Source: Nitrospinaceae bacterium (GTDB lineage Bacteria > Nitrospinota_A > UBA7883 > JAJDBK01). From it: a stretch of DNA of 64,000 nucleotides. This document shows positions 43,679 to 46,320 of the stretch, in pieces. How positions within the stretch are numbered: the stretch's first letter is position 1; every line of letters starts with the position of its first letter. The position numbers and the translations under genes are program-made. Location of the stretch: positions 1 through 64,000 of the forward strand of contig JAJDBK010000043.1 of assembly GCA_029261405.1 (NCBI GenBank), read 5' to 3'. The notes under the pieces were generated by a model. It saw only the letters and a program-made list of their open reading frames with translations, searched no databases and had not been told where the DNA came from.

Positions 43679-44317
43679 ATGAAACGATCTACATTTACGT
43701 TCCTAGCGCTGTTGTTAATTGTTCCCGGCGTAGCCTTCGCCGATCAGATAGAAGATCTCATGCGCACGGCTGGGGAGGGTAACACCACCAAAGTACGGAG
43801 CCTCCTTGACGGTGGCACAAGCGTAAACTCCAGGGGGAGTGGCGGCATGACCGCCATCATGCACGCATCTGAAGGCGGGAAGCCGGAGATGATGAAACTG
43901 CTGATAAGGTCTGGCGCCGACCCCCACGCGATGGACGACAAAGGTTATACGGCATTGATGTACGCCGCCGAAAAGGGGAACCCCATTGCGGTTAACGTGT
44001 TGCTCGACGCGAAGGTTCGGGCTGACGCGCTGAATCATGGCGCTCAGATGCTGGCGGCGAAAAGGGGTAATCCGAGCGCTCTGGAGGTTTTGTTGCGATA
44101 CCATGCCGATCCCAACGCGCGGGATGGGCAATCGTGGACCGCATTGATGTACGCTTCAAAAGGGGGGCATATCAGGGCCGTAGATCAACTGCTTAAACAT
44201 GGAGCTAATCCACATCTGAAAAACCATAGCGGCTACAGCGCCCTCGATTACGCCGTGAGCAATAATCGAAATGACGTTGCGAACATGTTAAGGGAAGCCA
44301 TGGCGAAAAAACGGTAG
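43679..44317 (+). CDS. Secreted ankyrin-repeat protein
   Basis: The 212-residue protein has a signal peptide (FLALLLIVPGVAFADQ) and about five ankyrin repeats: EGNTTKVRSLLDGGTSVNSR, GGKPEMMKLLIRSGADPHAM, KGNPIAVNVLLDAKVRADAL, RGNPSALEVLLRYHADPNAR and GGHIRAVDQLLKHGANPHLK. It is probably a periplasmic binding module; bacterial ankyrins of this type can accompany catalases or other enzymes, but no partner is clear here. It follows the macro gene by 35 bases, with TACAGGAG upstream of the ATG. Confidence 0.9.
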   Translation: MKRSTFTFLALLLIVPGVAFADQIEDLMRTAGEGNTTKVRSLLDGGTSVNSRGSGGMTAIMHASEGGKPEMMKLLIRSGADPHAMDDKGYTALMYAAEKGNPIAVNVLLDAKVRADALNHGAQMLAAKRGNPSALEVLLRYHADPNARDGQSWTALMYASKGGHIRAVDQLLKHGANPHLKNHSGYSALDYAVSNNRNDVANMLREAMAKKR

Positions 44318-44414: not shown

Positions 44415-44443
44415 TTGTCATTGTCGGCTTGGTCTCATAGAAT
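44415..44443 (+). promoter_or_regulatory. Sigma-70 promoter for the 23-residue ORF/gatCA operon
   Basis: TTGTCA (44415-44420) and TAGAAT (44438-44443) are separated by exactly 17 bases. Initiation near 44450 leaves about 40 bases before the small ORF. The rest of the 44318-44490 gap shows nothing else. Confidence 0.6.
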
Positions 44444-44490
44444 TACTGATTGGTTGATAATAGAAACGCACTTTGAAGGAGTGATGAACA

Positions 44491-44562
44491 ATGGCAAGTA
44501 GCACAAAAAAAAAGAAAGCCAGAAGGCGTTGGAAAAGCAAAAAGGCGAGCCACAGAAGATAG
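44491..44562 (+). CDS. Very small, highly basic protein (23 residues) preceding gatC
   Basis: The ATG at 44491 has AAGGAG at good spacing (GAAGGAGTGATGAACA). The peptide starts MASSTKKKKARRRWKSKK and ends ASHRR; 14 of 23 residues are Lys, Arg or His. Its stop TAG is immediately followed by the gatC ATG (TAGATG), so they are coupled. Very small basic peptides occur as accessory ribosomal proteins (such as bTHX or bS22) or RNA binders; this one matches neither sequence as I recall them. It could also be a leader peptide. The run of nine A residues (about 44505-44513) is a possible slippage site. Confidence 0.5.
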   Translation: MASSTKKKKARRRWKSKKASHRR

Positions 44563-44853
44563 ATGTCCCTTACCGAAGAGGATGTCAGGAGGGTAGCCAC
44601 TCTCGCGAGACTTGAGCTGTCGGTCGAAGAGACGCAGAAGTTTCGCGGTCAGTTATCCTCGATCATAGATTATATAGGCCAGCTTAACGAGCTTGATACA
44701 AACGACGTTGAACCTACGTCCCACGCCCTGGACTTGAAAAACGCTTTCCGGGAAGACGTGTGCGAGCGCAAATTCGACAAGGAATCGTGGAAGAGTAACG
44801 CCCCCCAGACAGGTCATGGTCACTTTCGGGTTCCCCGTGTGATTGAGGAATAA
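44563..44853 (+). CDS. gatC: Aspartyl/glutamyl-tRNA amidotransferase subunit C
   Basis: GatC links GatA and GatB in the tRNA-dependent amidotransferase that turns Asp-tRNA-Asn or Glu-tRNA-Gln into the correct aminoacyl-tRNA. The 96-residue protein has typical blocks VRRVATLARLELSVEETQKF, DYIGQLNELDTNDVEPTSHA and HGHFRVPRVIEE. The start follows the stop of the 23-residue ORF directly. gatA begins three bases after its stop. Confidence 0.93.
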   Translation: MSLTEEDVRRVATLARLELSVEETQKFRGQLSSIIDYIGQLNELDTNDVEPTSHALDLKNAFREDVCERKFDKESWKSNAPQTGHGHFRVPRVIEE

Positions 44854-44856
44854 TTC

Positions 44857-46320
44857 ATGACCGATCTTTGCGCTCTTACCATCCACGAACTGGCCGAACG
44901 GCTCGATTCTGACGCCACAACAAGCGTTCTTGCTACAACAGCATATCTGTCACGTATCGAAAATCTTGATGGAAAAATAAACTCATACATAACTGTGGAT
45001 CGCGAGGGCGCCCTCGCTCAGGCGGTCTGCGCGGACGAACAACGAAAAAACGGAGCTACAGGCCCACTCCTGGGAGTTCCTCTGGCGTTAAAAGATCTGA
45101 TAGCAACAAGTTCCATGAGGACCACCTGTGGCTCCAGAATGCTTGAGGGTTTCACTCCGCCCTACGATTCGTTCGTGACAAAAAAACTGAAAGAAGCTGG
45201 CGCCGTTATTCTTGGCAAGACCAGCATGGACGAATTCGCCATGGGCTCCTCTACCGAGACGAACTATTTCGGTGTTACCAGAAACCCGTGGAACCTTGAA
45301 AAAATACCGGGTGGATCTTCCGGAGGATCGGCGGCGGCGGTTTCAGCCGACCTTTGCGCAGGATCGTTGGGATCGGACACCGGAGGCTCTATTCGTCAAC
45401 CGGCCGGTTTATGTGGTGTGGTCGGATTAAAACCTACATACGGCAGGGTCTCACGGTTTGGCCTTGTGGCGTTTGCCTCCTCCCTGGACCAGATCGGCCC
45501 GATGACCAAGGACGCTTTCGACTCCGCAATTATTCTAAACGCCATCGCGGGTCACGATCCCATGGACTCGACAAGCGCGAAAGTTCCGGTCACAGATTAC
45601 ACCTCGGATATCGGTAAAGGGGTGGGCGGTCTCACCATCGGTGTGCCATCGGAGTATTTTACGGACGGTCTCGACAAGGAAGTGGAGAGCGCCGTAAGAC
45701 AAACCATATCGAACCTCGAAAAAGAAGGGGCCACTATCAAGGAAATCTCTCTCCCTCATACAAAATACGCAGTCCCGACCTATTATGTCCTGGCTCCGGC
45801 AGAAGCAAGCTCCAACCTCGCCCGTTACGATGGAGTAAAGTACGGGTTCCGCGCCGATGGGGCGGAAAACCTTATGGAGATGTACTGCAAAACCAGAAGT
45901 GAAGGTTTCGGCGCCGAGGTCAAAAGGCGGATAATGCTAGGAACATACGCCCTCTCCTCCGGGTATTACGACGCATATTACCTGAAAGCCCAAAAAGTCA
46001 GAACATTGATAAAAAGAGATTTTGTCGAAGCGTTCAAGGATGTTGATGTATTGATGGCTCCAACCTCTCCGGAACCGGCCTTTTCCATAGATGAGCATAT
46101 TGACGATCCTCTCACCATGTACCTTTCTGATATACTTACCATCAACGGCAATCTGGCGGGAATTCCGGGTGTCTCGGTTCCTTGCGGACTGACATCTTCC
46201 GGGCTACCTATCGGGGTTCAGTTGCTGGGCGATTATTTTTGCGAATCGACCCTTCTAAGGGTTGCTAGCGCTGTTGAGTCGGTAAGCGACATGTCGGGTA
46301 AAAAACCGGGACTTGTTTAA
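44857..46320 (+). CDS. gatA: Aspartyl/glutamyl-tRNA amidotransferase subunit A
   Basis: The 487-residue amidase-signature enzyme supplies ammonia from glutamine. The catalytic Lys lies in GVPLALKDLIAT, the Ser-cis-Ser in KIPGGSSGGSAAAVSA, and the nucleophile region GSDTGGSIRQPAG is intact. The C-terminus (GIPGVSVPCGLTSSGLPIGVQLLG) is typical. gatB is not in the window. Consistent with the non-discriminating-type AspRS 20 kb away. Confidence 0.95.
   Translation: MTDLCALTIHELAERLDSDATTSVLATTAYLSRIENLDGKINSYITVDREGALAQAVCADEQRKNGATGPLLGVPLALKDLIATSSMRTTCGSRMLEGFTPPYDSFVTKKLKEAGAVILGKTSMDEFAMGSSTETNYFGVTRNPWNLEKIPGGSSGGSAAAVSADLCAGSLGSDTGGSIRQPAGLCGVVGLKPTYGRVSRFGLVAFASSLDQIGPMTKDAFDSAIILNAIAGHDPMDSTSAKVPVTDYTSDIGKGVGGLTIGVPSEYFTDGLDKEVESAVRQTISNLEKEGATIKEISLPHTKYAVPTYYVLAPAEASSNLARYDGVKYGFRADGAENLMEMYCKTRSEGFGAEVKRRIMLGTYALSSGYYDAYYLKAQKVRTLIKRDFVEAFKDVDVLMAPTSPEPAFSIDEHIDDPLTMYLSDILTINGNLAGIPGVSVPCGLTSSGLPIGVQLLGDYFCESTLLRVASAVESVSDMSGKKPGLV

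Follow-up and report, generated by a model that had tools for sequence, protein, structure and literature searches.

A conserved 23-codon gene preceding gatC in a Nitrospinaceae bacterium may encode a distant relative of ribosomal protein bL37

Does the very short open reading frame that ends where gatC begins encode a protein and, if so, does that protein act on gatC or elsewhere? The frame lies in a 64,000-nucleotide stretch of contig JAJDBK010000043.1, hereafter the window, from a host genome of 3.27 Mb that is 99.5% complete. A preliminary description had suggested either an accessory ribosomal or RNA-binding peptide, or a translation-sensing leader; the analysis reported here supports that interpretation in part.

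The frame preceding gatC and its conservation

The features of the locus are as follows.

44415..44443, + strand: promoter-like sequence TTGTCA-N17-TAGAAT (TTGTCA at 44415-44420, a 17-nt spacer, TAGAAT at 44438-44443)
44476..44481, + strand: Shine-Dalgarno sequence AAGGAG, 9 nt 5′ of the ATG at 44491
44491..44562, + strand: basic-peptide gene, W-type, bL37-like but outside the defined bL37 models (coding 44491-44559, stop codon TAG 44560-44562)
44563..44853, + strand: gatC (TIGR00135), its ATG at 44563 abutting the peptide stop codon with no gap
44857..46320, + strand: gatA (TIGR00132), next in the same operon

The promoter-like hexamers with their spacing, the AAGGAG site and the contact between the stop codon and the gatC ATG were all found where the preliminary description had placed them. 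The promoter-like site, which was assessed on the window sequence alone, matches the consensus at 10 of 12 positions and was found once, compared with 0.3 ± 0.6 times in shuffled sequences; taken alone, such a match is weak evidence and unremarkable. The identity of gatC is given by TIGR00135 at 95.1 bits (cut-off, 47.1). The 23-codon peptide, MASSTKKKKARRRWKSKKASHRR, contains 7 Lys, 5 Arg and 1 His and has no acidic residues, which makes 13 basic residues rather than the 14 counted previously. The gene 5′ of the peptide (window 43679-44317, + strand) encodes a 212-residue ankyrin-repeat protein whose N-terminus, judged by eye, resembles a signal peptide; in most relatives this position is taken by other genes.

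Searches of 24 phylum genomes, first with the peptide as query and later with a 19-orthologue profile, recovered it in 20. gatC was also found in 20 genomes, and in 19 of these the peptide lay directly 5′ of it, so that the frame proves to be conserved at the very place in relatives where the preliminary description had proposed to look. In G023, which belongs to another class of the phylum, gatC was present and the peptide was not found, while neither was found in G003, G009 and G019. Throughout one order, and in another family of its class, the gene retains 22 to 26 codons and its start codon, Shine-Dalgarno sequence and stop codon; the 19 complete orthologues have 22 to 26 residues, 11 to 14 of them Lys or Arg, and a Shine-Dalgarno-like 4-mer precedes the peptide in all 20 orthologous loci. 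The first in-frame gatC start lies −4 to +13 nt from the end of the peptide stop codon (19 loci), and the linkage to gatC is constant in both carrier groups of the phylum. The genes 5′ of the peptide differ among most phylum genomes, and the conserved unit is therefore the peptide with gatC.

In one further locus (L043 of G022, 1501-2010, + strand), the peptide frame does not end after codon 23 but reads into unrelated sequence, and no gatC was found, which probably reflects an assembly end or a chimera. A contig scan matched 142 stretches, two of which were confirmed; two of the peptide's carriers are contigs with the deposited names Nitrospirae bacterium Dive96_bin1.228 and HyVt-426.

With merely 23 codons, the frame is below the usual limits of gene finders and might have been open by chance or decaying. 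To set against this, codon comparison of 20 orthologues (190 pairs) gave a mean pS of 0.88 and a mean pN of 0.17 in the peptide frame (pN/pS, 0.197), with pN lower than pS in every one of the 190 pairs. The other two frames, compared on 17 of the 20 sequences, gave pN/pS values of 1.6 and 1.2 and no such pattern. Seven residues (S3, T5, K7, R13, W14, K17 and H21) are invariant in the 20 orthologues, and R13 is encoded by six different Arg codons. Moreover, each of the 19 complete phylum peptides scored above its own 1000 shuffles (0 of 19,000 shuffles reached the originals). Conservation in 20 of 24 genomes, a Shine-Dalgarno-like sequence in 20 of 20 loci and purifying selection in all pairs thus place the frame far above chance. 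This conservation test, together with the preserved length and signals, rules out a chance or decaying frame; lack of conservation, which the preliminary description had named as the observation that would speak against it, was not what we found. The 23-codon frame is almost certainly a real gene.

Relatives outside the phylum and the question of a gatC leader

A profile built from the phylum only (A1) was run on 385 genomes and matched, at E ≤ 0.1, the 20 phylum genomes and 13 sequences outside the phylum. Four of the latter, in G254, G050, G273 and G303, are short ORFs that have a start codon and share the core (E = 8e-5, 7e-4, 2e-3 and 5e-3, respectively). Six others (L083-L088) were inspected and judged to be chance matches; the remaining three lay above E 0.07. 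A second round, with the four relatives added, recovered G054, G166, G080, G284, G147 and G230 at E values of 9e-6 to 8e-4; matches of profile A3 were counted at E up to 0.001, and about 0.3 second-round matches would be expected by chance at that threshold over the 361 genomes outside the phylum. The core of the outside relatives is approximately KLRWRSKKANHGxxP. In the phylum of G303, the peptide was present in 12 of 14 genomes at E ≤ 6e-8. Conversely, when a profile of 18 non-phylum sequences was run against the 2283 six-frame segments of the window, the window peptide was the sole match (E = 8e-4, scaled to genome size).

In L120 (G230, about 1494-1575, + strand), a TGA codon occupies exactly the position of the invariant Trp (MSKRKRRGKLK-stop-RSKKANHGRKPNLG). 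Three long frames near this locus have no in-frame TGA, so that a reassigned code is unsupported; sequencing error, decay or recoding may account for the codon.

Neighbours of the outside relatives, assigned by Pfam for ten proteins, were EF-G and YebC in G254, GroEL and Lon in G273, PfkB and HIT in G050, prs in G147 and G284, and H+-pyrophosphatase in G054; for one neighbour protein in G166 no Pfam family was found. gatC was not among these ten proteins. Inspection of 14 of the 57 gatC matches outside the phylum, and of the gatC of G023 within it, revealed no related frame before gatC. Since W-type relatives elsewhere adjoin other genes, the role of the peptide is not tied to gatC. In G147 (L119) and G284 (L118), which represent two different families, the peptide gene is convergent with one for ribose-phosphate pyrophosphokinase, which makes this a second neighbourhood common to more than one carrier.

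These data bear on the proposal that the frame is a regulatory leader in which the Lys/Arg run, or the nascent basic peptide, slows ribosomes and thereby sets gatC translation. Polybasic stretches are able to slow ribosomes, and the short distance between the peptide stop and the gatC start in the 19 loci favours translational coupling. Synonymous codons, however, vary freely at the conserved Lys/Arg positions; Trp, Ala, Ser/Thr and His are conserved as well; and relatives with the same core adjoin unrelated genes, gatC being a neighbour only within the phylum. In addition, the RNA fold, computed on the window sequence only, is nothing special (z = −0.84), and the frame has no series of Gln or Asn codons with which the products of GatCAB might be sensed. 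The leader half of the preliminary description is thus not supported, and we regard a leader function as improbable.

The link to bL37 and its limits

What, then, does the peptide resemble? The peptide itself, the phylum members and the phylum profile gave nothing convincing against PDB, Pfam and NCBIfam; a match of 3 of 19 members to DUF3545 (E = 0.75) was noise. A broader profile, A6, was composed of 26 sequences with no bL37 included. Among 177,635 PDB sequences, it had six matches at E ≤ 10, all with marginal E values. Five are bL37 forms of mycobacterial or Cutibacterium origin (E = 0.041 to 1.9), one of which bears the deposited name 'peptide'; the sixth is mL102, a ciliate protein of the mitochondrial large subunit. 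A smaller profile (A4) returned the same six. When the 26 members of A6 were compared with 18,950 NCBIfam models by hmmscan, the only models touched were the two for bL37, the mycobacterial one by 10 members and the planctomycete one by 9, the best at E = 0.004, with scores under both curated cut-offs. Profile-profile comparison of A6 with four bL37 sequences gave 87% probability. In shuffle tests with the wider W-type profile, three actinobacterial bL37 sequences each scored above 2000 of 2000 shuffles and a planctomycete bL37 above 1999 of 2000.

The phylum's own sequences do not match bL37 beyond chance: with the phylum-only profile, 234 to 397 of 2000 shuffles scored as well as actinobacterial bL37, and profile-profile comparison gave 1.6%. 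The link is therefore a transitive one, from the window peptide to its W-type relatives and from these to bL37, in which each step is supported and the two ends would be joined only indirectly. Nor did the window peptide match either of the bL37 models (NF047428, cut-off 30 bits; NF047429, cut-off 40 bits). No genome of its phylum exceeded the NF047429 cut-off (289 genomes searched), and that of NF047428 was exceeded in none of 14 genomes, G000 and G001 included. The ANHGKRP end is invariant in four aligned bL37 sequences and absent from most of the window's phylum, where most peptides keep A-(S/T)-H and then stop or continue without GKRP. We call the peptide bL37-like, and leave it outside the defined bL37 models, because it falls below the curated cut-offs and does not carry the ANHGKRP end.

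The peptide might instead be some other RNA- or DNA-binding micro-protein, such as an accessory that binds tRNA or GatCAB, a nucleoid peptide or a factor that associates with the ribosome but is not bL37; its likeness to bL37 would then come only from a shared richness in basic residues and a short KKANH-like motif. The constant gatC linkage in both carrier groups and the chance-level direct match of the phylum peptides to bL37 would agree with this. On the other hand, relatives elsewhere are not beside gatC, the wider profile singles out bL37 and mL102 in the whole PDB set, and composition-matched shuffles fall short of the real scores, and we therefore consider such a micro-protein unlikely. 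Of the readings in the preliminary description, that of an accessory ribosomal or RNA-binding peptide gains support from the conservation of the frame and from its indirect link to bL37, a 50S protein. Overall, with a probability of roughly two in three, the peptide is an unannotated protein of the large ribosomal subunit that would be distantly related to bL37.

The fact that bL37 lies next to the uL30 site raised the idea that the peptide replaces uL30. None of the 24 genomes from the window's phylum had a uL30 match (PF00327), compared with 13 of 14 control genomes; over the set of 385 genomes, 220 had one. Among outside W-type carriers, G054, G080, G166, G254 and G303 had a match and G050, G147, G230, G273 and G284 were absent from the matches; with carriers split 5 to 5, replacement of uL30 is no rule, and the peptide has no general link to a uL30 substitution.

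Proposed role and comparison with known systems

bL37 is described as having 24 residues, folded into an N-terminal helix and a C-terminal loop, and as sitting in a pocket formed by H39, H40, the H41/H42 joint, H72 and H89 (PMC5876184), beneath the tip of 5S rRNA (PMC10085706). By analogy, we infer ribosome binding, the pocket and the effect of the peptide as follows. With a strong Shine-Dalgarno site of its own to direct translation, the first gene of the gatC-gatA operon would yield a peptide whose basic N-terminal part forms a short helix and whose (K/R)A(S/N)H tail forms a loop. The peptide would enter the 23S pocket (H39-H42, H72, H89) beneath the 5S rRNA tip, where it may neutralise phosphates and stabilise the pocket region near the peptidyl-transferase centre. 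Its position before gatC would then provide co-expression and probably translational coupling, and would not reflect its function.

The descriptions of bL37 cited above state that it exists only in high-G+C actinobacteria (PMC5876184) or call it Actinobacterium-specific (PMC10085706), and NCBIfam adds a planctomycete model (NF047429). A literature search on bL37 in Planctomycetes found no paper, nor did one on bTHX as a small basic ribosomal protein; a search on gatC with a small ORF and a ribosomal protein found, by title, none on this peptide. It is conceivable, if on balance somewhat doubtful, that one old large-subunit family across several bacterial phyla unites the W-type peptides with mL102 and with the bL37 of actinobacteria and planctomycetes, and that the pocket at the 5S tip serves bacterial ribosomes as a general socket that varies between lineages; the bacterial members would have been overlooked because they are only 22 to 34 residues long, and frames of such length are easily missed. 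A W-type relative that is fixed in the greater part of this phylum and occurs in one other phylum or more would make the protein lists of many bacterial ribosomes incomplete, with the missing protein beside the peptidyl-transferase centre, where antibiotics act. The peptide offers a named sequence for fitting into unassigned density.

Among known proteins, bL37 of Mycobacterium and Cutibacterium (NF047428; PDB 5o60, 7kgb, 8crx) is, like the peptide, very basic and encoded by a stand-alone tiny gene. It has 24 residues compared with 22 to 26 in the phylum peptides, and shares with the window peptide a Lys-rich stretch followed by A(N/S)H. The W-type peptides differ from it by three to four extra residues around the invariant Trp, and those of the window's phylum do not have the GKRPN end. 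The planctomycete bL37 (NF047429; for example, L089) has a KKANHG(K/S)(R/K)P core in common with the W-type relatives of other phyla, but it carries a long C-terminal basic tail and no Trp, and the W-type peptides are below its 40-bit cut-off.

bTHX (TIGR04560) is likewise tiny and basic, and the Thermus protein has one Trp; the TIGR04560 cut-off was reached in 0 of 24 phylum genomes, and Thermus THX scored within its own shuffles against the W-type profile, so that this identity was rejected. In Borrelia, an N-terminal extension of uL30 is reported to occupy the bL37 pocket (PMC10618245), although, unlike the peptide, it is part of a larger protein.

The Tetrahymena mitoribosomal protein mL102 (PDB 6z1p, chain AQ) carries at residues 68-79 the sequence KKANHGARPCSS, which matches the W-type/bL37 core (E = 0.16), and is possibly a mitochondrial bL37. 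It is described as extending downwards out of the gap that separates the central protuberance from the L7/L12 stalk (PMC7326499), which would place it near the bL37 pocket region.

Finally, CLaSP of Coxiella burnetii is reported to be a 22-residue basic peptide whose gene lies one base after nusB and which occupies the 5S/23S cleft that also holds bL37; its authors describe no substantial identity to bL37 and consider that it is possibly convergent (PMC13392368). CLaSP, encoded beside nusB, is therefore a close precedent for a tiny basic peptide beside a translation-related gene.
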